A stretch of DNA of 64,000 nt, from contig NZ_CP025117.1 in the NCBI RefSeq assembly GCF_002831645.1, positions 627,514 through 691,513 of the forward strand. Direction: 5' to 3'. The translations under genes and the position numbers were made by a program. The notes under the pieces are model-generated. The model was not told where the DNA came from, did no database searches, and saw only the letters and a list, made by a program, of their open reading frames with translations. This stretch comes from Olleya sp. Bg11-27 (GTDB taxonomy: Bacteria; Bacteroidota; Bacteroidia; Flavobacteriales; Flavobacteriaceae). The stretch's first letter is position 1; the number at the start of each line of letters is the position of its first letter. Below are positions 9,002 to 34,727 of this stretch, one piece after another.

Positions 9002-10276
9002 CTAATCTGGATACTTCCCACTAATCCCATCCAAACACAAATTACCAATACTACCAATATGCGTGTGTTTTTTAGAGGTATCTGGTACATAAGTTCCACT
9101 TTCAACTTCATCTCCAATTTTTTGATACGCTTCTCTAAAAGGCATACCTCCCACAACCAATGTATTAATATTATCTACCGTAAATAAGTATTGATACTTA
9201 GCATCATTCAAATCAATGTCTTTTACAATGACTTGCTGAATGGCGTAATTAAAAATATCTAATAAGTCTTTTACATCTTCAATTGCTGCAATTATATTTT
9301 CCTTTAATAACTGAAAATCTCTATGGTAACCACTTGGTAAATTATTAGTAATTAACACCATTTCAGTATGCAAAGCTTGTATTTTATTGGCTTTTCCTCT
9401 AATTAATTCAAACACATCTGGATTCTTTTTATGTGGCATAATACTGCTTCCCGTCGTTAGCTCATCCGGAAAGGCAATAAAGCCAAAATTCTGACTATTA
9501 TACACGCAAATATCCATTGCAAAACGCGCTAAAGTATTACACACGCTCCCTAAAGCTAAAGCAATAGTACGTTCGCTTTTCCCTCTACTCATTTGCGCAG
9601 CAACAACGTTGTATTTTAAAGTTGAAAACTTTAATTCTTTTGTGGTTAATTCTCTATCAATAGGAAACGAACTTCCGTAACCCGCTGCAGAACCTAACGG
9701 ATTTTGATCTACGGTTTTCAAGGCTGCATTTAACAAGTAAACATCATCTATTAAAACCTCAGCATAAGCAGAAAACCACAATCCAAAGGAAGATGGCATA
9801 GCTACTTGTAAATGCGTATAACCAGGAAGTAAAGCGTCTTTATGCGTTTCCGCTAAACTTAAAAGCGTATCGAAAAAGATTTTTGTTTTCGCGTTAATTT
9901 CTTTTAAATTCTCTTTGTAGTACAATTGAAGCGCAACTAAAACTTGATCGTTTCTAGATCGTGCGGTATGGATTTTCTTTCCGACGTCACCTAAGGTTTT
10001 AGTCAGTTCATATTCAATTTTAGAATGCACATCTTCAAAGGATTCTTCAATAACGAAGGTTCCGTTTTTTATAGTTTCCGCAATAGCGTGTAAACCATTT
10101 TTAAGCTGTTGCAGTTCTTCCGAAGAAATAATGCCAATAGACTCCAACATTATTGCATGCGCTAAAGATGCTTGCACATCGTACTTTGCAATATGCATAT
10201 CAATTTCTCTATCGTTTCCTACGGTAAATTGTTCTATTTTTTTATCGATACTTATTCCTTTGTCCCAGAGTTTCAT
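9002..10276 (-). CDS. argH: Argininosuccinate lyase
   Basis: Last step of arginine synthesis: argininosuccinate to arginine and fumarate. It is 424 aa. I start it at the ATG at 10276 (MKLWDKGIS), which matches the family N-terminus. The longer frame to 10297 runs into a family A repeat and is probably not translated. The fumarase/lyase-superfamily signature GSSIMPHKKNPD is present, with the catalytic serine loop, and upstream HTARSRNDQV is the substrate-binding segment. It is the last gene of the leftward arginine operon, 87 nt after argE, with the family A inverted repeat in between. Confidence 0.97.
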   Translation of the reverse strand: MKLWDKGISIDKKIEQFTVGNDREIDMHIAKYDVQASLAHAIMLESIGIISSEELQQLKNGLHAIAETIKNGTFVIEESFEDVHSKIEYELTKTLGDVGKKIHTARSRNDQVLVALQLYYKENLKEINAKTKIFFDTLLSLAETHKDALLPGYTHLQVAMPSSFGLWFSAYAEVLIDDVYLLNAALKTVDQNPLGSAAGYGSSFPIDRELTTKELKFSTLKYNVVAAQMSRGKSERTIALALGSVCNTLARFAMDICVYNSQNFGFIAFPDELTTGSSIMPHKKNPDVFELIRGKANKIQALHTEMVLITNNLPSGYHRDFQLLKENIIAAIEDVKDLLDIFNYAIQQVIVKDIDLNDAKYQYLFTVDNINTLVVGGMPFREAYQKIGDEVESGTYVPDTSKKHTHIGSIGNLCLDGISGKYPD

Positions 10277-10292
10277 AATTTGATTTTTTATT

Positions 10293-10358
10293 GTCATTGC
10301 GAATGAAATGAAGCAATCTCATGATGAGATAACTTCGTCATTCTTCCTCGTTATGACG
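10293..10358. repeat. Family A inverted repeat between argE and argH
   Basis: gtcattgcgaatgaaatgaagc and a diverged opposite arm ending cctcgttatgacg. In the transcript this could fold into a hairpin within the operon between argE and argH. Confidence 0.65.
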
Positions 10359-10362
10359 TTTG

Positions 10363-11424
10363 CTACAGTACTTTTTCTAATAATTCAATATATATTTTAA
10401 TCCCTTCTTCAATCTCATTCACGTAAATAAACTCGTCAGCGGAATGCGATCTTGTACTATCTCCTGGTCCTAATTTTAATGACGGACAAGTTAAAACCGC
10501 TTGATCCGACAAGGTTGGCGAACCGTAAGTGCTTCTCCCTATTTCTATTCCTGCAATAACCAATGGATGATCGATTGGAATAGAGGATGAATTTAATTTT
10601 ATACTTCTCGGAATAATACTATCACAAAGCGCTTCCTTTTGTAAAATATCCACAATCTCTTGGTTGGAATATTTATCGTTTACACGAACATCCACAACCA
10701 GTTTTACATCTGCAGGAACTGCATTATGTTGTTTTCCTGCGTTAATTTGAGTAACCGTTAATTTCACTTCCCCTAAAGCTTCCGAGGTTTTATCGAAGGT
10801 GTAATTTTTAAACCATTCTAATACCGAAATCGAATTATAAATCGCATTATCGGCATTTGGATGTGCAGCATGACTAGGGGTTCCTTTTACGATTGCATCA
10901 AAAACCACCAAACCTTTTTCGGCAACAGCCAAATTCATCAAGGTAGGTTCTCCAACAATAGCGACATCTACTTTTGGAATCACAGACAGCATACTATTCA
11001 ATCCGTCAGGACCACTACTCTCTTCTTCCGCAGAAGCGACAATCACCAAATTAAAATTCAGGTTTTCTCTGTTATAAAAATACGCAAAGGTTGCCAGCAA
11101 ACTCACCAAACAACCTCCAGCATCATTGCTACCTAAACCATATAATTTACCATCCTCAACAATCGCTTTAAAAGGATCTTTGGTATAGCCATTATTTGGT
11201 TTTACCGTATCGTGATGCGAGTTTAACAATAGCGTTGGTTTGCTATCGTCAAAATGTTTATTCGTTGCCCAAACGTTATGTTTCGTTCTTTTAAAAGGAA
11301 TATCCTGTTGTACAAACCATTGCTCAATATGCGCGGCTGTTTGATCTTCTTCCGAAGAAAAGGACTGCGTTTCAATGAGTGTTTTTAACAGCTGAATTGC
11401 TCTTGTTGTTAGTTTTTCTATCAT
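10363..11424 (-). CDS. argE: M20-family deacylase, acetyl/succinyl-ornithine(citrulline) type (ArgE)
   Basis: Predicted zinc hydrolase removing the N-acyl group from the arginine intermediate. In an ArgF' pathway the substrate would be N-acyl-citrulline. It is 353 aa. M20 motifs seen are LLLNSHHDTVKP (metal His/Asp), GLGSNDAGGCL (bridging Asp), ASAEEESSG (catalytic and metal Glu), VGEPT, and a C-terminal SHSADEFI (metal His). Its ATG overlaps the argB stop by 4 nt (ATGA), indicating translational coupling. Annotation pipelines may call it DapE or generic M20, but the operon position argues for ArgE. Confidence 0.9.
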   Translation of the reverse strand: MIEKLTTRAIQLLKTLIETQSFSSEEDQTAAHIEQWFVQQDIPFKRTKHNVWATNKHFDDSKPTLLLNSHHDTVKPNNGYTKDPFKAIVEDGKLYGLGSNDAGGCLVSLLATFAYFYNRENLNFNLVIVASAEEESSGPDGLNSMLSVIPKVDVAIVGEPTLMNLAVAEKGLVVFDAIVKGTPSHAAHPNADNAIYNSISVLEWFKNYTFDKTSEALGEVKLTVTQINAGKQHNAVPADVKLVVDVRVNDKYSNQEIVDILQKEALCDSIIPRSIKLNSSSIPIDHPLVIAGIEIGRSTYGSPTLSDQAVLTCPSLKLGPGDSTRSHSADEFIYVNEIEEGIKIYIELLEKVL

Positions 11425-12197
11425 TTGGTAATGGTTGTGTGTTTATTATTTTTTCGGAAAAGCATTTGGGATTTACCAATACAAACTTTTTGTACCTGAT
11501 GGTTTATCGCATGAAAACAGTTGTTTAATTTTGGAAGCATGCCTTCATAAATAATTCCGTTTTCGATTAGTGAAGGGTAGCTTTTTGTGTTGATATTTTC
11601 GATAACAGAATCGTCATTATCGACATCTTCTAAAACCCCGTTTTTTTCAAAACAGTAATATAATTCCGTGTTATAAATAGACGCAAAACCAATTGCTAAT
11701 TCGGAAGCAATCGTATCTGCATTGGTATTTAATAATTGTCCGTTTTTATCATGTGTAATCGCACAAAACACAGGACTCACATTGTTATTTAAAAGCAATT
11801 CTAACGTCTCTGTATTTACTTTTACAACATCGCCAGCAAAACCATAATCGATAGGCTCTGATGGTCTTAAATCTGAAACTATCGTGTTGCCATCCGCTCC
11901 AGAAAAACCAATAGCATTACAATTGTGGGCTTGTAATTGTGCTACTATAGTTTTATTGATTTTTCCAGCATACACCATTGTAATAATATCTAAAGTCACT
12001 TGATCGGTTACTCGTCTTCCATCAATCATTTTAACCCCAACTTGCATTTGTTGCGTTAATTTGGTTGCTAATTTTCCACCACCATGCACTAGAATTTTAG
12101 GTCCATCTATAGTCGCGAATGCTTTTAGGAATTGCTGTAAGGCATCATCATCATCGATGATGTTTCCTCCAATTTTTATGATTTTTAGTGTTTTCAT
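11421..12197 (-). CDS. argB: Acetyl(acyl)glutamate kinase
   Basis: Phosphorylates N-acylglutamate. It is 258 aa from the ATG at 12197 (MKTLKIIKIGGN). The longer frame to 12260 reads through a family B intergenic repeat (its product begins MMLTRHVMLNSFQYH), so I reject that extension. Motifs: KIGGN at the start, LVHGGGK near residue 38, GFSGADGN, and LLNTNADTIA for ATP/Mg binding. It lacks the N-terminal helix seen in arginine-inhibited hexameric kinases, so direct arginine feedback is less likely; this is inference. It overlaps argE by 4 nt. Confidence 0.95.
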   Translation of the reverse strand: MKTLKIIKIGGNIIDDDDALQQFLKAFATIDGPKILVHGGGKLATKLTQQMQVGVKMIDGRRVTDQVTLDIITMVYAGKINKTIVAQLQAHNCNAIGFSGADGNTIVSDLRPSEPIDYGFAGDVVKVNTETLELLLNNNVSPVFCAITHDKNGQLLNTNADTIASELAIGFASIYNTELYYCFEKNGVLEDVDNDDSVIENINTKSYPSLIENGIIYEGMLPKLNNCFHAINHQVQKVCIGKSQMLFRKNNKHTTITK

Positions 12198-12211
12198 GCT
12201 TATTCTTATTT

Positions 12212-12249
12212 TGATGTGATACTGAAATGAATTCAGCATGACGTGACGG
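12212..12249. repeat. Family B repeat (tactgaaatgaattcagcatgac)
   Basis: The core actgaaatgaattcag can fold on itself and is followed by catgacg. It lies immediately upstream of argB and is read in frame by the over-long argB frame. Relatives occur at 12283 and 21814. Confidence 0.65.
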
Positions 12250-12282
12250 GTTAACATCAACTTGTTACTTACTTTAAAACCT

Positions 12283-12414: not shown

Positions 12415-13350
12415 TTACAATTCCTCCAGAATCTGCTTCAAAACAATTTGCGCAGCAAAAGTCCTATTATTTGCTTGTTGGATAACCACTGATTGCTCAC
12501 CATCCAAAACCGCATCTTCCACAACCACATTACGTCTTACAGGTAAGCAATGCATAAATTTTGCATTACCCAACTTCGCTTTTGTCATCATCCAATTCTC
12601 ATCCTGACTAAGCACTTTTCCATAGTCTTTATAATTACTCCAGTTTTTCACATAGACAAAATCGGCATCTTTTAAAGCCTCTTCTTGATTGTGATTTATT
12701 GGTGTTTTTCTCGAAATTGCTTCACTCAATTCATAACCTTCCGGATGTGTAATGGTTAAATCGACATCCATATTTTGCATCATTTCTACAAACGAATTTG
12801 CAACCGCTTGTGGCAATGCTTTTGGATGTGGCGCCCAAGACAAGACTACTTTTGGTTTCGCTTTTTTAGATAATTCAGTTATAGTAATAGCATCTGCTAA
12901 TGCCTGTAAAGGATGAGCAGTTGCACTCTCCATATTTACAATTGGCACTGTTGCGTATTTTATGAAACTATTCATTACAAATTCAGACTCGTCTTTTTTC
13001 TTATCTGTTAAACTTGGGAATGCTCTTACAGCAATCACATCTCCATATTGCGAAATCACTTGCGCAGCCTCTTTAATGTGTTCTGAGGTGTTTGCATTCA
13101 TGATTGTTCCATCTTCAAACTCTAAGTTCCAAGCGTCATTTACGTTTAAAATCATCACATCCATTCCTAAGTTTTTTACAGCCTTTTCTGTACTTAATCG
13201 CGTTCGTAAACTGGAATTAAAAAACAGCATGACTAATGTTTTATGTTTTCCTAAATCTTCGAATTTAAAAGGGTTCTTTTTTAGTAAAATCGCGTCGTTT
13301 ATAATTTCTTGAAGATTTGATATGTCTTTTATTTCGGTGTATTTTTTCAT
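12415..13350 (-). CDS. argF': N-acylornithine carbamoyltransferase (ArgF' type, probably N-succinylornithine)
   Basis: Transfers carbamoyl to an N-acylated ornithine, giving N-acylcitrulline; this replaces ordinary ornithine transcarbamylase. It is 311 aa from the ATG at 13350 (MKKYTEIKDI). The longer frame to 13407 translates a family C repeat. The carbamoyl-phosphate motif is FNSSLRTRLS (about 44-53), HPLQALAD lies near 147, and the C-terminal HCLPVRRNVVVED is family-typical. At the position recalled to set acyl specificity (Glu92 in the Xanthomonas acetyl enzyme, Pro90 in the Bacteroides succinyl enzyme) this protein has Ser89 in NTSEH. As I recall published swap mutants, a small non-acidic residue there favours succinylornithine. 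Confidence 0.9.
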   Translation of the reverse strand: MKKYTEIKDISNLQEIINDAILLKKNPFKFEDLGKHKTLVMLFFNSSLRTRLSTEKAVKNLGMDVMILNVNDAWNLEFEDGTIMNANTSEHIKEAAQVISQYGDVIAVRAFPSLTDKKKDESEFVMNSFIKYATVPIVNMESATAHPLQALADAITITELSKKAKPKVVLSWAPHPKALPQAVANSFVEMMQNMDVDLTITHPEGYELSEAISRKTPINHNQEEALKDADFVYVKNWSNYKDYGKVLSQDENWMMTKAKLGNAKFMHCLPVRRNVVVEDAVLDGEQSVVIQQANNRTFAAQIVLKQILEEL

Positions 13351-13358
13351 GTTAAATA

Positions 13359-13379
13359 GGTCTCGACTGCGCTCGACCA
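13359..13379. repeat. Family C repeat (ggtctcgactgcgctcgacc)
   Basis: ggtctcgactgcgctcgacc is an imperfect palindrome located 9 bp upstream of the argF' start. Its relative at 21868 has the same cgactgcgctc core. Confidence 0.65.
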
Positions 13380-13395
13380 GACAACATAAATGTCT

Positions 13396-13415
13396 CCTCG
13401 AGAGCACTCGAGAGG
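13396..13415. repeat. Palindromic element cctcgag-agca-ctcgagagg
   Basis: Two CTCGAG hexamers in a compact hairpin (cctcgagagcactcgagagg) directly after the argD stop. It may be the second arm of the family C element at 13359. Confidence 0.55.
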
Positions 13416-13416
13416 T

Positions 13417-14556
13417 TTAAGTTGTTATCTTTTTTAATTCCTTTTTTAAAGCCTCAAAAAGCAAATCGACATGTTCTTTTTTGATGGTTAAAGGCGGAAG
13501 AATTCGTAATAAATTAGGATTCTTCGCACTTCCTGTAAATATCTTATGTTCAAAAATTAGCTTTTTACGTAGTTCAGCTATCGGAAAATCAAATTCCAAT
13601 CCTAACATTAAACCACGTCCTTTTATATTTTTAATTGACGAAATTCCTTTTGCTTTTTCAATAAAATAGGCTGAGATATCTTTAGCATTTTGCATCAAAT
13701 GCTCTTCTTCAATAACTTCTAAAACCGTCAAAGAAGCTACACAAGCTAAGTGATTTCCGCCAAAAGTGGTTCCTAATAGACCAAAAGAAGCTTTAATATT
13801 TGGATGAATTAAAATCCCACCAATCGGAAACCCATTTCCCATACCTTTGGCAATCGAAATAATATCTGGAGTCACATTATATTTCTGAAACGCGAAGAAA
13901 TCGCCAGTTCTTCCAAAACCAGATTGTACCTCATCTGCAATAAAACACGTATTGTATTTTTTGCATAGTTCATCCAAAGCTTCGTAGAATGCAGCAGTAC
14001 TTTCGTCCAACCCTCCAACACCTTGAATACACTCAATAATTACTGCACAAACATCGTTTTTAGCTAGTGCTTTCTCTACACCTTCTAAGTCTCCTAATTC
14101 TAGAATCTCAACCTCTTGTTGTGCGTTAATTGGCGCAATAATCTTCGTATTATCTGTTGCCGCAACTGCTGCTGATGTACGACCATGAAAGCCATTTTTA
14201 AAAGCAACTACTTTTTTCTTTCCGTTATGGAATGATGCTAATTTCAAAGCATTCTCATTGGCTTCTGCACCAGAATTACATAGAAACAACTCGTAGTTTT
14301 TACAACCTGATAATTGCTCTAATTTGTCCGCTAATTGCACTTGTAACGGGTTCTGAATCGAGTTGCTATAAAACCCTAATTTGGCGACTTGATCAGAAAT
14401 CGCAGTCACATATTTTGGATGCGAATGTCCAATAGAAATCACCGCATGTCCACCATATAAATCTAAATATTTGGTATTGTTTTCATCGTAAACAAAAACA
14501 TCTTCTGCCTTTACAGGTGTGATATCGAATAAAGGATACACGTTAAATAAACTCAT
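13417..14556 (-). CDS. argD: Acetyl(acyl)ornithine aminotransferase
   Basis: PLP enzyme converting N-acylglutamate semialdehyde to N-acylornithine. It is 379 aa, class-III aminotransferase. Motifs: CNSGAEANENALKLA, FHGRTSAAVAATDN, ADEVQSGFGRTG, and the PLP lysine in ISIAKGMGNGFPIGG. The start MSLFNVYPLFDI fits the flavobacterial family. Its start overlaps the proC stop by 4 nt (ATGA). A repeat cluster separates it from argF' downstream. Confidence 0.96.
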   Translation of the reverse strand: MSLFNVYPLFDITPVKAEDVFVYDENNTKYLDLYGGHAVISIGHSHPKYVTAISDQVAKLGFYSNSIQNPLQVQLADKLEQLSGCKNYELFLCNSGAEANENALKLASFHNGKKKVVAFKNGFHGRTSAAVAATDNTKIIAPINAQQEVEILELGDLEGVEKALAKNDVCAVIIECIQGVGGLDESTAAFYEALDELCKKYNTCFIADEVQSGFGRTGDFFAFQKYNVTPDIISIAKGMGNGFPIGGILIHPNIKASFGLLGTTFGGNHLACVASLTVLEVIEEEHLMQNAKDISAYFIEKAKGISSIKNIKGRGLMLGLEFDFPIAELRKKLIFEHKIFTGSAKNPNLLRILPPLTIKKEHVDLLFEALKKELKKITT

Positions 14557-15353
14557 ATCTGCTCTTCTTTAATGTTACTAATCTTGTTAAACGAGGCAAT
14601 CATACCTTGTATTAAAGACGAACTCAATCCTTTGTGTTCCATCTCATTCAAACCTTCAATCGTACACCCTTTTGGCGTGGTTACACGATCTATTTCCTCT
14701 TCTGGATGATTCCCATTGGTAATCAATAAGCTCGCAGCGCCTTCACTAGTATACATCGCTAATTCTTGTGCTTCTTTAGCATCAAACCCTAACTGAATAG
14801 CAGCTTGTGTTGTCGCTCTAATTAAACGCATCCAAAACGCAACACCACTCGCGCAAACCACAGTGGCTGCTTGCATTTGACTTTCCGGAATACTTAACGA
14901 ATGTCCTAAACGGTTAAAAATAGCCTCAGCGATTTTAATACGTTTTGCACCTTGCACATTACTACACAAACACGTCATGGATTTACCAACTGCAATCGCA
15001 GTATTCGGCATCGCACGAATAATAAATTTATCTGCTCCAACTTGCGCTTCAATCTTAGGAATTAGAAAACCTGTAATGGTCGAAATCAAGACGTGCTTCT
15101 CTGTTAATTCTGGCTTAATGTCATTCAATATTTGCTCAAAATGCGCTGGTTGCACTGCAGAAATGATGATATCAGATTGCCTTACAGCTTCGGTATTATC
15201 CGTCGTTAAATGCACATTTTTATACCCCTCAAATTCTTGAATGCCCTCTAGATTTCTTTTCGTTAGATACAAAGTGGTAATCGCATTGTTGGTTATTAAT
15301 CCTTTTGCGATGGATTTCCCTAAGTTTCCTGTTCCTATAATTGCTATTTTCAT
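14553..15353 (-). CDS. proC: Pyrroline-5-carboxylate reductase in the arginine operon
   Basis: Reduces pyrroline-5-carboxylate to proline with NAD(P)H. It is 266 aa; the N-terminal Rossmann motif is IAIIGTGNLGKSIAKGL, with FIIRAMPNTAIAVGKSMT and the C-terminal signature GNHPEEEIDRVTTPKGCTIEGLNEM. It lies between argC and argD, overlapping argD by 4 nt. Proline and arginine routes share glutamate-semialdehyde chemistry, which may explain the pairing. A role on an acylated intermediate is possible but unsupported. Confidence 0.92.
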   Translation of the reverse strand: MKIAIIGTGNLGKSIAKGLITNNAITTLYLTKRNLEGIQEFEGYKNVHLTTDNTEAVRQSDIIISAVQPAHFEQILNDIKPELTEKHVLISTITGFLIPKIEAQVGADKFIIRAMPNTAIAVGKSMTCLCSNVQGAKRIKIAEAIFNRLGHSLSIPESQMQAATVVCASGVAFWMRLIRATTQAAIQLGFDAKEAQELAMYTSEGAASLLITNGNHPEEEIDRVTTPKGCTIEGLNEMEHKGLSSSLIQGMIASFNKISNIKEEQI

Positions 15354-15440: not shown

Positions 15441-16424
15441 TTAAAAATAAGTCGCTTTCAATTTTAATCCTTCTGTTTCATCAAAACCAAACATTAAGTT
15501 CATGTTTTGAACAGCTTGCCCGGAAGCGCCTTTCAATAAATTATCAATAATGCTTGTCACCAATAATTTGTCTTCATGTTTATGTAAATGAAGAATACAC
15601 TTATTGGTATTTACTACTTGTTTTAAATGAATCTCATCATCCGAAACTACAGTAAAAGCAGCATCTTTATAAAATGCGTTATACAATGCTTTTGCATCTT
15701 CCAAGCTTCCTTTAAACTTAGTATACATGGTTGCGAAAATTCCTCTTGAAAAATCACCACGATTTGGCATAAAGTTGATATCAGAATTAAAGTTAGATTG
15801 CAACAGTTTCACCGATTGATTAATCTCTCCTAAATGTTGGTGTGTAAAAGCCTTATAATGCGAAAAGTTATTATCTCGCCACGTAAAATGAGTAGTTGCA
15901 GATAATGATGTTCCTGCTCCTGTTGCTCCTGTAACTGCATTAACGTGTACATCATTTTGCAAAACTTCAGCTTTAGCTAAAGGCAATAATGCTAACTGAA
16001 TAGCAGATGCAAAACACCCTGGATTTGCAATGTAATTCGCTTTTTCAATCGCTTCTTTATTTAATTCCGGCAAACCATAAACAAACGTTTTTCCTTCAAA
16101 AATGGCGTCTTTAGTTAATCTGAAATCATTACTTAAATCGATGATTTTAGTTTCAGCAGAAAAGGTGTTTTTCTCTAAAAAGGCTTTAGAATTTCCGTGA
16201 CCTAAACACAAAAACAACACGTCTACTTTTGAGTAAATTTCACTTGAAAACTCCAAATCTGTACTACCAATTAAATCTTGGTGTACTTTATATATCTTAT
16301 TTCCAGCATTAGAGGTACTGTAAATAAAATTGATGTTTGCTTTTGGATGATTTAACAACAATCTAATAAGTTCTCCAGCTGTATAACCTGCTCCTCCAAT
16401 AATTCCTATTTCTATTTTTTTCAT
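15441..16424 (-). CDS. argC: N-acetyl(acyl)-gamma-glutamyl-phosphate reductase
   Basis: NADPH-dependent reduction of N-acylglutamyl phosphate to the semialdehyde. It is 327 aa from the ATG at 16424 (MKKIEIGIIGGAGYTAGEL). The longer frame to 16475 translates a family D repeat and is rejected. The catalytic cysteine lies in YIANPGCFASAIQLAL. HQHLGEINQ and the C-terminal LLKGASGQAVQNMNLMFG are family-typical. It is preceded by the palindromic repeat at 16441-16471 and argG. Confidence 0.96.
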   Translation of the reverse strand: MKKIEIGIIGGAGYTAGELIRLLLNHPKANINFIYSTSNAGNKIYKVHQDLIGSTDLEFSSEIYSKVDVLFLCLGHGNSKAFLEKNTFSAETKIIDLSNDFRLTKDAIFEGKTFVYGLPELNKEAIEKANYIANPGCFASAIQLALLPLAKAEVLQNDVHVNAVTGATGAGTSLSATTHFTWRDNNFSHYKAFTHQHLGEINQSVKLLQSNFNSDINFMPNRGDFSRGIFATMYTKFKGSLEDAKALYNAFYKDAAFTVVSDDEIHLKQVVNTNKCILHLHKHEDKLLVTSIIDNLLKGASGQAVQNMNLMFGFDETEGLKLKATYF

Positions 16425-16440
16425 TACAACTTGTCTTTCA

Positions 16441-16471
16441 GACCTGTCAGGTTTTAAAAACCTAACAGGTC
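16441..16471. repeat. Family D palindrome (gacctgtcaggtttt...acctaacaggtc)
   Basis: A near-perfect inverted repeat: gacctgtcaggttt pairs with aaacctaacaggtc around a short centre. This is the 'agacctgtcaggtttt' type I recall from many Bacteroidota intergenic regions. It lies between argG and argC. Confidence 0.75.
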
Positions 16472-16479
16472 TCACTCAA

Positions 16480-17721
16480 TTAATTATTTACTTGTTGATA
16501 AATCTTATTTTGGTTTCCTACAATTTTGATAAACCCTTTAGCTTCTTCAGCCGTCCAACCTTTATTTTCTTCGCCATAACTTCCAAACTTCGCATTCATT
16601 AAATCATGCTTAGAACTGATTCCGTCTACAGTAAAATGGTATGGTTTTAAGGTCACAAAAACATCTCCCGACACTTTGTCTTGGCTGCTTTGTAAAAAGG
16701 CTTCCATGTTACGCATTACAGGGTCTAAATATTGCCCTTCATGCAAATGCATTCCGTAGAAATTTGACATATAATCTTTGTGCTGTAATTGCCATTTTGT
16801 TAGTGTATGCTTTTCTAATAAATGGTGTGCTTTTATTATCACCAAAGCAGCAGCAGCTTCAAAACCAACACGTCCTTTAATACCAACTATTGTATCTCCA
16901 ACGTGAATATCTCTACCAATTGCATACGCAGACGCCAGATTGTTTAACACTTCAATATTTACGTCTGATGCGTTTTCAATTCCATTAACAGCAACCAATT
17001 CTCCTTTTAAAAAGGTTAATGCAACTTTCTCTTCTTCCGCATGTTTTAATTGCGAAGGATAAGCACTTTCTGGTAATGGTTTTTCTGATGTCAATGTTTC
17101 TTCTCCACCAACACTAGTTCCCCAAAGTCCTTTATTAACAGAATACTTTGCCTTTTCCCAAGAAGCTTCAATACCGTTTTCTTTTAAGTAATCAATTTCT
17201 TGTTGTCTACTTAAACTTCCATCTCTAATGGGCGTGATGATTTTAATATGTGGTGCCAACGTTTGAAAAATCATATCAAAACGTACTTGATCGTTTCCTG
17301 CTCCTGTGCTTCCGTGTGCGATATATTCGGCATCAATACTTTTTGCATATTCGATAATTTCGATTGCTTGAATAATACGTTCTGCACTTACAGATAAAGG
17401 ATAGGTGTTGTTCTTTAAAACATTTCCGAAGATTAAATACTTAATCACTTTATCATAATACGATGCAATAGCGTCGATGTTCTTATAGGTCGACACGCCC
17501 ATCTTGTAGGCATTTGCTTCGATGGTTTGAATTTCTTCATCAGAAAAGCCACCCGTATTTACACTTACCGCGTGCACATCATATCCTGCTCTACTTAAAC
17601 TTACTGCGCAATAGGATGTATCTAATCCACCACTATATGCTATTACTAATTTTCCCTTTCTGTCACTTTGTGACATCTTTCCCGAAGGGAAAACATCATC
17701 GGATTTATTCGCTTTTTTCAT
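16480..17721 (-). CDS. argG: Argininosuccinate synthase with a repeat-derived N-terminal extension
   Basis: Joins citrulline and aspartate using ATP. It is 413 aa. The ATP-pyrophosphatase loop is LVIAYSGGLDTSYCAVSL, and ISAERIIQAIE, HGSTGAGNDQVRFD and SVNKGLWG-type segments are present. The family normally begins just before the LVIAYSGG strand. Here about 23 extra residues precede it, and residues 10-24 (VFPSGKMSQSDRKGK) are encoded by a 44-bp palindromic element (17650-17693). Starts possible are the ATG at 17721 or the internal ATG at 17676, itself inside the element. No closer ATG exists before the core. The 17721 start overlaps the upstream acyltransferase by 17 nt. Confidence 0.95.
   Translation of the reverse strand: MKKANKSDDVFPSGKMSQSDRKGKLVIAYSGGLDTSYCAVSLSRAGYDVHAVSVNTGGFSDEEIQTIEANAYKMGVSTYKNIDAIASYYDKVIKYLIFGNVLKNNTYPLSVSAERIIQAIEIIEYAKSIDAEYIAHGSTGAGNDQVRFDMIFQTLAPHIKIITPIRDGSLSRQQEIDYLKENGIEASWEKAKYSVNKGLWGTSVGGEETLTSEKPLPESAYPSQLKHAEEEKVALTFLKGELVAVNGIENASDVNIEVLNNLASAYAIGRDIHVGDTIVGIKGRVGFEAAAALVIIKAHHLLEKHTLTKWQLQHKDYMSNFYGMHLHEGQYLDPVMRNMEAFLQSSQDKVSGDVFVTLKPYHFTVDGISSKHDLMNAKFGSYGEENKGWTAEEAKGFIKIVGNQNKIYQQVNN
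17650..17693. repeat. Palindromic repeat (family E) inside the argG 5' coding region
   Basis: Outer arms ttttccc and gggaaaa are inverted. Inside are two smaller palindromes, tgtcactttgtgaca and ttcccgaagggaa. The 44 bp lie in frame within argG codons 10-24. I recall the tgtcactttgtgaca and cccgaaggg pattern from intergenic repeats in this phylum. Confidence 0.6.
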
Positions 17722-18340
17722 TCTTTTCTTTTTTAAGGAACATGGATTGCTTAATATTTTTCAATCTGGTCCATACTTTTTTATCATGATTATTTGCTAC
17801 TGGTTTTGTTGCTTCCTTTTTCAAAGGATCATACAACATACCTGTACATAAGCACATTTTTTGCTCTGTTCTTGTCAAAACATCAAAGTTTTTACAGGTC
17901 TGACAGCCATTCCAAAAGGATTGATCGTCTGTTAATTCTGAAAACGTAACAGGTTTATAACCTAAATCACTATTCATTTTCATAACTGCTAAACCCGTAG
18001 TAATACTAAATACTTTAGCCTCCGGAAACTTGGTTCTAGAATGCTCGAATATTTTCTGTTTGATCTGCTTAGCTAAGCCAATGTTTCTAAAATCTGGATG
18101 TACAATTAATCCAGAATTGGCTACAAATTTGCCATGACCCCATTGTTCGATATAACAAAAGCCTGCAAATTTATCGCCCTCTAAAGCAATAACAGCATTA
18201 CCATTTTCCATTTTGGTAATAATGTATTCAGGCTTGCGTTTTGCAATACCAGTTCCTCTAACTTGAGCAGCATCAGCAATAGTATTACAAATAATATCTG
18301 CGTAAATACTATGTGATTTATCAGCAATAACAATTTCCAT
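17705..18340 (-). CDS. GNAT-family acyltransferase heading the arginine operon, probable N-acylglutamate synthase
   Basis: It is 211 aa. The N-terminal 130 residues are a GNAT fold: acyl-CoA loop HPDFRNIGLAKQI (residues 81-93, R-N-I-G-L-A), a preceding beta strand ending SGLIV, and a C-terminal NSDLGYKPV. No argA or argJ is present in the operon, so this is the natural candidate for acylating glutamate. I recall that an arg-linked acyltransferase of Bacteroides was proposed as an N-succinylglutamate synthase. Oddity: the C-terminal tail has Cys146-x2-Cys149 and Cys163-x-Cys165 (GCQTC, MCLC), a possible metal or redox site. It is the first structural gene after the leader region and overlaps argG by 17 nt. 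Confidence 0.8.
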   Translation of the reverse strand: MEIVIADKSHSIYADIICNTIADAAQVRGTGIAKRKPEYIITKMENGNAVIALEGDKFAGFCYIEQWGHGKFVANSGLIVHPDFRNIGLAKQIKQKIFEHSRTKFPEAKVFSITTGLAVMKMNSDLGYKPVTFSELTDDQSFWNGCQTCKNFDVLTRTEQKMCLCTGMLYDPLKKEATKPVANNHDKKVWTRLKNIKQSMFLKKEKNEKSE

Positions 18341-18576
18341 TGTAATTGAATTTTAAATTAAAAAATGTGATAATTTTTGTTTTTGAAAGCAGAACCGGAC
18401 TCACCTTAGTTCTATAAATAGAAGTACACCCTAAGGGCGACGACGGAAAATTGGACGTAGGGTTATCCTGTTATTATTTCTAATAACTGTATTTAAAAAA
18501 GGAAATATTTGTGTTGAATTGTTCACTGTCTGAAAAAAAATAAAAACTATTAACTAAAAAGCTTGAAGTATGCGTA
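18341..18576 (-). promoter_or_regulatory. Arginine operon leader RNA with alternative hairpins (putative attenuator)
   Basis: This is the untranslated stretch between the leader-peptide stop and the first structural gene. On the minus strand the Arg-codon run contains GACGACG (18590-18584), complementary over 7 nt to CGTCGTC (18445-18439). Competing pairs are ACCCTA with TAGGGT around that site, CCTTAG with CTAAGG further downstream, and AGAAC with GTTCT. A clean hairpin with a GAAA loop sits at 18487-18470. Several of these exclude each other, as expected of an attenuator, but I see no classical GC hairpin followed by a U tract. The mechanism (transcriptional or translational) is unclear. 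Confidence 0.5.
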
Positions 18577-18642
18577 TTAGCGACGTCGTCTGCGTAATAG
18601 CAAACTTGTGGGTCTTTCGTTTTTATTTAGTGTTGTAAACAT
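18577..18642 (-). CDS. argL: Arginine leader peptide, 21 aa ending in five Arg
   Basis: A small ORF ATG...TAA of 22 codons. The peptide begins MFTTLNKNERPTSLLL and ends RRRRR before TAA, using the codons CGC AGA CGA CGT CGC. It begins about 22 nt downstream of a predicted transcription start and 302 nt ahead of the first gene of the arginine operon, on the same strand. A terminal run of the pathway's own end product is the classic design of a ribosome-stalling leader peptide. Codon-level check: all 22 codons were read individually. No homologue is known to me; the symbol is descriptive. Confidence 0.75.
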   Translation of the reverse strand: MFTTLNKNERPTSLLLRRRRR

Positions 18643-18669
18643 GGTGTAAAACTATAAATTAATTTAATA

Positions 18670-18698
18670 CAAACTAGTAAAACATTCAATTAGTGCAA
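18670..18698 (-). promoter_or_regulatory. Predicted Bacteroidota promoter of the arginine operon
   Basis: On the minus strand TTG (18698-18696), a 19-nt spacer and TAGTTTG (18676-18670). The Bacteroidota sigma-ABfr consensus is TTG, N19, TAnnTTTG; the -7 box is one base short. The expected start point near 18664 gives a short 5' end before the leader peptide. Confidence 0.55.
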
Positions 18699-18716
18699 TT
18701 TTTTATGAAATCATTA

Positions 18717-18771
18717 TTTTCAAGCCTAATAATTATATAAATCTCACTATTAGGCGTTTCTGACTTGAAAA
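18717..18771 (-). terminator. Long hairpin after gapN
   Basis: Inner arms GCCTAATA and TATTAGGC, with outer arms TTTTCAAG and CTTGAAAA, directly downstream of the gapN stop. It is likely to end gapN transcription before the arginine promoter, though no long U tract follows. Confidence 0.45.
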
Positions 18772-27483: not shown

Positions 27484-27512
27484 TTATGGTCTACTTCTAT
27501 TTAAATAATAAT

Positions 27513-27565
27513 CTAAAGTAGAAGTTTGACATTTTACACCTAGTCTATTTTTAAAACACAGACTA
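27513..27565 (-). promoter_or_regulatory. Hairpins in the ilv operon leader
   Basis: On the minus strand TAGTCT and AGACTA form arms of a hairpin at 27565-27541, overlapping the end of the small Leu/Val-rich ORF. A second hairpin with arms ACTTCTA and TAGAAGT follows just before ilvD. Neither carries a U tract. Confidence 0.35.
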
Positions 27566-27587
27566 AATTCAGGTCACAAAATAACAT
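27540..27587 (-). CDS. Possible ilv leader peptide, 15 aa
   Basis: A small ORF, MLFCDLNLVCVLKID then TAG, 57 nt upstream of ilvD and on the same strand. Of 15 residues seven are Leu, Val or Ile, the end products of branched-chain synthesis. The terminal third overlaps a hairpin. Leucine-rich short ORFs arise easily in AT-rich DNA, so this is weaker than the arginine leader. Confidence 0.35.
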   Translation of the reverse strand: MLFCDLNLVCVLKID

Positions 27588-27706
27588 ATTAATTAATTGA
27601 TAATCAGTGCTTTAAAAGATATTTATTATGACACCCAAGATGTATAATTTTATTTAATTTCTATAAAAAAGTATTTGTAGATCCTGAGGACAATAAAAAA
27701 AATGAA

Positions 27707-33903: not shown

Positions 33904-34653
33904 TTGAAAATCCCATTCAACCTTGAGCTATTTGGTATTAACATAAATACGCATCTTGTTTTAGAGTATCTCGCTTTTTTTATTGCGTATCGCTATTATG
34001 TGTTTTTAAGGAAAAGTAATACAGATACTATTAATTCCAACAACCGGTTATCCATTATTTTAGGTGCTGCTTTAGGCGCTTTAATAGGTTCACGCTTGGT
34101 TGGCTTTTTAGAAAATCCTTTAATTGAATTATCTTTAAGAAACCTGATCCAATTATTTAATACTAAAACCATAATGGGTGGTTTATTTGGTGGTTTACTA
34201 GGTGTGGAATTAGCGAAGAAGCTAATTGGCGAAAAGCAATCTTCTGGAGATCTATTTGTCTTCCCAATCATTTTAGGAATTTTTATTGGTCGCGTGGGTT
34301 GCTTTCTATCTGGTATTAATGAGTTTACTTACGGTAAGGTGACGTCTTCTATTTTTGGAATGGATTTAGGTGATGGCCTTATGCGTCATCCCACGTCATT
34401 GTATGAGCTAGTTTTTTTAACCTTTTTACTTATAACTTTAAGAGCCATAAATGATAGCTTCCAATTAAAAAACGGGGAGTTGTTTAAGATTTTTATGCTC
34501 AGTTATTTTGGCTTTAGATTTTGTATTGAGTTTTTAAAACCAAATGTATTTTATACTTTCGGTTTAAGTAGTATTCAACTATTATGTGTAATTTGTTGGT
34601 TGTATTACAGTCAATTTATTGCTAGCCTTTTACTTAGTAGACAGGTGCGTTAG
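33904..34653 (+). CDS. Lgt-like integral membrane protein (prolipoprotein diacylglyceryl transferase family)
   Basis: It is 249 aa, starting at TTG (no in-frame ATG nearby). It is a multi-helix membrane protein. Family-like core: GALIGSRLVGFLENP (the GxxxGxR helix), GGLFGGLLGVELAKK, then GRVGCFLSGINEFTYG and MRHPTSLYE, corresponding to the Lgt signature (GRxGNFxN...) and the RHPxQLYE motif. Cys replaces the usual Asn in GRxG(N/C), and the protein is shorter than housekeeping Lgt (about 270-300 aa). I therefore read it as a divergent paralogue that uses phospholipid as donor; substrate unknown. It lies 95 nt upstream of the radical SAM gene on the same strand. Confidence 0.8.
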   Translation: MKIPFNLELFGININTHLVLEYLAFFIAYRYYVFLRKSNTDTINSNNRLSIILGAALGALIGSRLVGFLENPLIELSLRNLIQLFNTKTIMGGLFGGLLGVELAKKLIGEKQSSGDLFVFPIILGIFIGRVGCFLSGINEFTYGKVTSSIFGMDLGDGLMRHPTSLYELVFLTFLLITLRAINDSFQLKNGELFKIFMLSYFGFRFCIEFLKPNVFYTFGLSSIQLLCVICWLYYSQFIASLLLSRQVR

Positions 34654-34727
34654 TGATAGAAACGGTATCCTTTTTTGAGGAACGAGAAAAAGATTTAGTG
34701 GATAGCGCGACCCTTGTGGTAACGCCC
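34653..34727 (+). repeat. Flavobacterial intergenic element (gatagaaacggtatcc...gcgcgacccttgtggtaacgccc)
   Basis: It begins at the Lgt-like stop codon and runs to about 34727. It is more GC-rich than its surroundings, with gatagaaacggtatcc, ggatagcgcgaccc and ggtaacgccc segments. I recall close look-alikes downstream of many genes in this family, so I mark it as a repeat element; it could be a structured RNA or termination signal. Confidence 0.5.

Follow-up and report, generated by a model that had tools for sequence, protein, structure and literature searches.

The window, a 64,000-nucleotide stretch of the Olleya sp. Bg11-27 genome, encodes a nine-gene arginine operon on its minus strand, its genes assigned with family profiles. 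The genes, in operon order, are the following.

17705..18340, minus strand: GNAT acetyltransferase, operon gene 1 (PF00583)
16480..17721, minus strand: argG (TIGR00032, score below the curated cut-off)
15441..16475, minus strand: argC (TIGR01850)
14553..15353, minus strand: proC (TIGR00112)
13417..14556, minus strand: argD (TIGR00707, score below the curated cut-off)
12415..13407, minus strand: N-acetylornithine carbamoyltransferase (NF003384, above the cut-off)
11421..12260, minus strand: argB (TIGR00761)
10363..11424, minus strand: ArgE/DapE-family deacylase (TIGR01910, score below the curated cut-off)
9002..10297, minus strand: argH, the last operon gene (TIGR00838)

The GNAT acetyltransferase is a possible N-acetylglutamate synthase, and the ArgE/DapE-family deacylase would be argE. 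Because these genes belong to the arginine pathway, a leader located upstream of them would precede the whole pathway. The neighbouring ilv operon begins with ilvD, and the gap upstream of that gene (27484-27706) has an inverted repeat, CTTCTA...TAGAAG, directly 5' of ilvD; no AGGTGWGTCC core occurs in this gap. A Flavo-1 RNA (RF01705, an Rfam family without assigned function) matches at 34635-34716 with 44.9 bits.

Upstream of the arginine operon, and on the same strand, are a putative promoter box, two short open reading frames (leader 1 and leader 2) and four predicted RNA hairpins.

18647..18654, minus strand: -7 promoter box, TAGTTTTA (matching TAnnTTTG), 4 nt upstream of the leader-1 start codon
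18577..18642, minus strand: leader 1, MFTTLNKNERPTSLLLRRRRR, translated from the window, with counterparts in relatives
18588..18605, minus strand: hairpin D, inside leader 1, its 3' arm overlapping the first Arg codons (covariation)
18431..18526, minus strand: leader 2, VNNSTQIFPFLNTVIRNNNRITLRPIFRRRP, ending in FRRRP before the stop (GTG start at 18526, TAG stop at 18431)
18470..18487, minus strand: hairpin C, inside leader 2, with a GAAA loop (covariation)
18427..18439, minus strand: hairpin A, CGCCC-TTA-GGGTG, with a U-rich stretch downstream
18390..18414, minus strand: hairpin B, a 7-bp stem with an A bulge, two GG/CC pairs and the loop UGAGU

Leader 1 had been singled out in an earlier note as an Arg-ended ORF of 22 codons on the operon strand, and translation confirms it. 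Its last codons are CGC AGA CGA CGT CGC TAA, and its ATG is located 302 nt from the ATG of the first operon gene (18340). Within the window alone leader 1 is only mildly unusual, and it is conservation that decides whether it is real. It is the one ORF among 665 comparable ORFs in the window with at least five Arg among the eight terminal codons, and 1 of 20 simulated first-order Markov windows contained such an Arg-ended ORF. That frequency speaks for chance. Against chance or a small functional Arg-rich protein, dozens of genera share the position, the Arg run, the promoter spacing and the second leader, and the peptides vary outside their ends. We consider both explanations, chance and protein, barely credible.

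Conservation was assessed in 170 upstream regions of the same acyltransferase gene, 80 of them from Flavobacteriaceae or their kin and 90 from a family-wide sample of 149 genomes, in which 98 genomes have the gene. After removal of six duplicates, 164 distinct regions remained. A loose script identified an Arg-rich ATG ORF in 121 of the 170 regions, some of which are not leader 1. With a stricter script, leader 2 and hairpins A and B were found in 163 of 170, and leader 1 was also present in 113 of these 163. When the 113 tandem calls were read by eye, three proved wrong (L140, L148 and L151) and three doubtful (L122, L158 and L165); leader 1 is present in three loci where the script missed it (L063, L111 and L130), and L065, scripted as without the element, has it. 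Among distinct loci, with the wrong calls removed, leader 2 and hairpins A and B occur in 157 of 164 and leader 1 also in 104 of the 157, leaving 7 of 164 without the leader 2 and hairpin element as scripted. The 90 family-wide regions comprise, by script, 40 tandem loci (37 without the wrong calls), 45 that are single or unclear, and 5 without the element. A conserved run of Arg codons, whose lack in close relatives the earlier note had named beforehand as evidence against its reading, is thus present. Nothing was concluded from a tree-based tally of how often leader 1 was gained or lost (19 changes; FastTree, about 100 residues), as its labels included known errors.

The putative -7 box, called as the best box with at least five of six letters, has a nearly fixed position relative to leader 1. 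Of the 104 distinct tandem loci, 76 have a gap of 4 nt between the end of the box and the leader-1 ATG and 19 have a gap of 5 nt (95 of 104 together; 80 and 20 of 113 tandem loci when duplicates are counted). In non-tandem loci with an ATG, the box ends 7 nt upstream of that ATG in 17 of 38. The promoter predicted earlier, TTG-N19-TAGTTTG, needs correction: its box (18676-18670) is not the conserved one, which is located about 22 nt further downstream. A passage of PMC9723704 assigns the flavobacterial -7 box TAnnTTTG to positions -12 to -5. Given the 4-5 nt spacing, the mRNA probably begins at the leader-1 AUG, with a predicted transcript start at the A of the ATG (18642) or a few nucleotides upstream, and would probably be leaderless. 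Such a start would be uncommon, since leaderless mRNAs make up 5.5% of those measured, according to a passage of the same paper (PMC9723704).

Leader 2 shows a coding signature. In the 81 distinct tandem loci with the usual stop this frame is interrupted by a stop in none, versus 80 of 81 for each of the other two frames, and a start codon (TTG, GTG or ATG) occurs exactly 30 or 31 codons from the leader-2 stop in 75 of 104. Among loci with the usual stop position, the terminal residue is Pro in 133 of 133 and is preceded by Arg in 132 of 133; anchoring of the frame on the terminal Arg-Pro motif accounts for part of this conservation. In 30 of 157 loci the leader-2 stop is at least 6 nt beyond the usual place, so that a stop in the hairpin A loop is not general. 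By script count, 19 of the 104 tandem loci have at most one Arg among the last eight codons of leader 2. In distant genera leader 2 is the sole leader, for example in L143, where it ends in FTPVRRRRP. Four further loci (L026, L031, L052 and L086) show no leader 1 by eye; their leader 2 is preceded, at a distance of up to about 35 nt, by a promoter-like box. Because leader 2 is the more conserved of the two and the sole leader in distant genera, we regard it as the core of the region and leader 1 as an addition. The interpretation of the flagged ORF as an arginine leader is therefore supported by conservation, with the amendment that this ORF supplements a second leader that the earlier note did not describe.

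Codon changes single out the end of leader 2. In the last eight codons of leader 2, 6,080 of 10,225 single codon changes are synonymous (59%, versus about 23% for random changes), a count that, like the others of this kind, comes from pairs of loci that are not independent. The corresponding figure for the first 25 codons is 229 of 882 (26%), hardly above the 23% expected, and for this reason constraint on peptide or codons is apparent only at its end. For leader 1 the synonymous share is 29-47% in four length classes, compared with about 23% expected. Among the Arg codons in the last ten codons of the leaders, CGC accounts for 63% in leader 1 and 52% in leader 2; in 17 genes of the window CGC accounts for 7% of Arg codons and AGA for 45%. 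Part of this CGC bias may reflect the hairpins.

The RNA structure is supported by an alignment of 141 loci with the window sequence first (A1): 103 cells of the named structure carry changes at both partners of a pair, versus 26 in shuffles. Hairpin B shows two-sided changes at all five stem pairs. A comparison of pairing within a species and between species supports hairpin B in both locus groups, and hairpins C and D in the 90 tandem loci: the pairs of hairpin C form in 68-69% of own combinations versus 24-28% of cross-species ones, and the 5-bp helix of hairpin D in 28% versus 6%. Hairpin C at a fixed place is unsupported in the 43 other, non-tandem loci; its mean fold z-score is about -1.6 in 57 tandem loci and -1.0 in 50 others. 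In hairpin A, the final Arg and Pro codons of leader 2 make up the 5' arm, and the leader-2 stop codon overlaps the loop. The helix of hairpin A is short (5 bp) and mostly invariant; in A1 a single pair has changed on both sides, so its pairing rests on few compensatory changes.

Hairpin B is arg-specific and nearly invariant. Across 164 loci a stem of 5-7 pairs is found in 160, the bulged A in 159, pairable GG/CC in 163 and the loop UGNGU in 159, counts that are partly selected because the loci were picked by a core allowing three mismatches. The bulged A is separated by two pairs from a pentaloop that hardly varies; such a shape would suit a bound protein and may resemble phage coat-protein or PyrR hairpins. 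Hairpins A and B could together constitute the regulator, with a protein or ligand binding B and the leaders merely setting the position of the ribosome. Consistent with this, hairpin B has a single match in the whole genome, at the leader region, its core is nearly invariant (partly selected by the search), and A and B are spaced 17-21 nt apart in 131 of 133 loci. On the other side, loci L200-L254 do not contain the exact core of hairpin B and the 12 loci L187-L198 do not contain it at up to two mismatches, yet many of these loci have Arg-rich or Arg-containing leaders. We consider this explanation unlikely. As an ordinary terminator hairpin B can be discarded, given its one match in the genome and a U-tail score of 1.21, close to that of shuffled sequences (1.16), versus 1.79 behind hairpin A (133 loci).

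An RNA model of the region (R1) has one match in the genome of the window and matches 14 of 196 genomes in an order-wide sample, one match each and all in Flavobacteriaceae; these figures come from a search with strict filters in a sample heavy in one genus that is mostly without R1. No known Rfam riboswitch, T-box or leader family accounts for the leader stretch: there is no Rfam match up to E = 5 in window positions 18300-18760, and the two matches in the window at gathering score are both outside it. A hairpin masking the start codon of the first operon gene was also rejected (mean fold z-score of -0.18 in 163 loci).

We hypothesize that the leader region is an attenuator of the arginine operon that senses Arg codons, in a family without ArgR, and consider this likely. 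Translation of the leaders, ribosome stalling and control of the operon are deduced from sequence comparison. Under this hypothesis, the mRNA would begin at or beside the leader-1 AUG, and ribosomes would read leader 1 and then leader 2, both of which end in an Arg run that is mostly CGC. When charged tRNA-Arg is scarce, the ribosome would stall on the Arg codons. Because the Arg codons of leader 2 form the 5' arm of hairpin A, a ribosome stalled there would keep hairpin A open. When arginine is plentiful, the ribosome would finish at the leader-2 stop, within or just behind hairpin A, and depart; GC-rich hairpin A, followed by its U-rich stretch, could then form and cause early termination. 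Leader 1 would act as a second sensor in series, missing in some lineages.

Hairpin A is a candidate terminator, but we lean slightly against this assignment. The tail behind it falls short of a clean U run, and the leader region is no richer in terminator-like sites than shuffles are (14 versus 11.3 by one count and 1 versus 0.9 by another). If hairpin A is the terminator, the layout would be simpler than that of a textbook attenuator. The fuller picture would be a compact attenuator without an antiterminator, in which the sensing codons form the terminator's 5' arm and the stop falls within its loop, allowing a stalled ribosome to prevent termination directly. It would be doubled in series on a leaderless mRNA, with hairpin B binding a factor and with class-wide Arg leaders that swap with argR. 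We offer this only as a tentative possibility.

Classical attenuation of the his or trp type, in which a stalled ribosome makes the RNA switch between antiterminator and terminator hairpins, shares the overall layout of a leader with cognate codons before a biosynthetic operon, and several stable hairpins are present here. However, a covariation search over all pairs of helices, to which invariant pairings would be invisible, found only the local hairpins B, C and D to covary and no mutually exclusive antiterminator and terminator pairings; alternative helices among A, B, C, D and their flanks were likewise unsupported by covariation. Pairing between the Arg runs of leader 1 and leader 2 was rejected as a switch, since duplexes formed within and between species have equal energies (-9.21 vs -9.21 kcal/mol, 90 loci). 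Classical attenuation is thus quite unlikely in our judgement. Control of the operon by the leader, as the earlier note had proposed, is supported by the comparison of loci, and the classical switch between alternative hairpins was sought and not found.

Some leader peptides act as arrest peptides, such as TnaC, which senses tryptophan. Leader 2 could be of this kind and sense free arginine or a precursor, instead of charged tRNA, at its terminal Arg-Pro-stop. The invariant terminal Pro and the almost invariant Arg before it, partly by construction, would fit. The conservation of the Pro codon is explained by its being part of hairpin A as well, the upstream Arg is not at a fixed position, runs of cognate codons are characteristic of codon sensing, and a biosynthetic operon needs the opposite sign of regulation. 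We therefore view an arrest peptide as very unlikely.

The earlier note had suggested that a flavobacterium with an arginine leader would have a solution other than ArgR, and the domain searches support this: neither the genome of the window nor any of the 149 sampled family genomes gave a match to PF02863, the Arg-repressor domain, and an ArgR-controlled arginine operon was discarded on these grounds. The same search gave a match in 8 of 14 control genomes, a Bacteroides among them. In a class sample, 8 of 149 genomes have PF02863, and five of these eight also have the acyltransferase. In four (G368, G408, G441 and G472, all from other families), argR is located directly before the acyltransferase gene, at the position where relatives have the leader; in G444 the PF02863 match is only at the cut-off and is located elsewhere than the acyltransferase.

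Arg-rich ORFs are also frequent outside the family. We scanned 54 loci and left out the four that are argR-adjacent; ArgR was searched in part of the remaining 50 genomes. Among the 50, an ATG ORF with at least three Arg in eight codons occurs no more than 400 nt upstream in 33, versus 6.65 in simulations, and one with at least four Arg in eight codons in 14, versus 0.95. These ORFs share little sequence with the flavobacterial leaders. In loci L200-L211 and L215-L254 the ORFs are of several unrelated types, many ending in RR, PRA, RI or FRV before the stop. A different leader was seen by eye in 9 of 12 loci (L187-L195, genus g128, probably Flavobacterium), about 240-340 nt before the GNAT gene. 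An example is MNNKRVHITSNSRMNRPVTSPEVRMLLV in L191, where two CGG Arg codons are conserved and the ATG follows a TAnnTTTG box at a distance of exactly 4 nt.

These findings suggest how a large bacterial group may regulate arginine synthesis without the standard repressor, and would exemplify how related genomes can have either a protein repressor or a translated RNA sensor at the same place. The layout, in which the sensing codons are themselves the arm of a hairpin, would be a simple one for an attenuator, and could link leaderless translation to amino-acid sensing in bacteria without Shine-Dalgarno sequences. A passage of PMC2965389 describes leader peptides as then known in Proteobacteria and Actinobacteria, and adds Firmicutes. 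For Flavobacterium psychrophilum, part of PMC9723704 reports structured 5' regions with strong clues for leader-peptide attenuation before amino-acid operons, and the section concerned names pheA, hisG and others, not arg. Our search of the open PubMed Central literature retrieved no report of a leader peptide for arginine upstream of an arginine operon in Bacteroidetes.

The predicted system is similar to the leader attenuators of the his, trp, leu, ilv and thr operons, where a biosynthetic operon is likewise preceded by a short ORF with consecutive codons for the amino acid of the pathway. In comparison with them, it concerns arginine, has tandem leaders on a transcript predicted to be leaderless, has no antiterminator that we could find, and includes an arg-specific hairpin B. 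In E. coli pyrBI attenuation, the leader ORF overlaps a hairpin that the ribosome would keep open, and the coupling is UTP-dependent. The leader 2 ORF likewise runs into hairpin A, the candidate terminator, but with cognate Arg codons in place of UTP-dependent coupling. The Bacteroid-trp RNA (RF01692) is an RNA motif of an amino-acid operon, likewise in Bacteroidetes, whereas the leader stretch studied here has no Rfam match. The name and phylum of that RNA are given in a passage of PMC2864571. Part of PMC3641672 describes tandem attenuators in the Salmonella mgtCBR leader, with two short ORFs in one leader as here, and with other signals and genes. In the Salmonella speF leader, Arg codons in orf34 make expression arginine-dependent, as described in part of PMC6386406; that system uses two Arg codons, Rho and RNase G to control a polyamine gene, whereas the operon described here is one of arginine synthesis.
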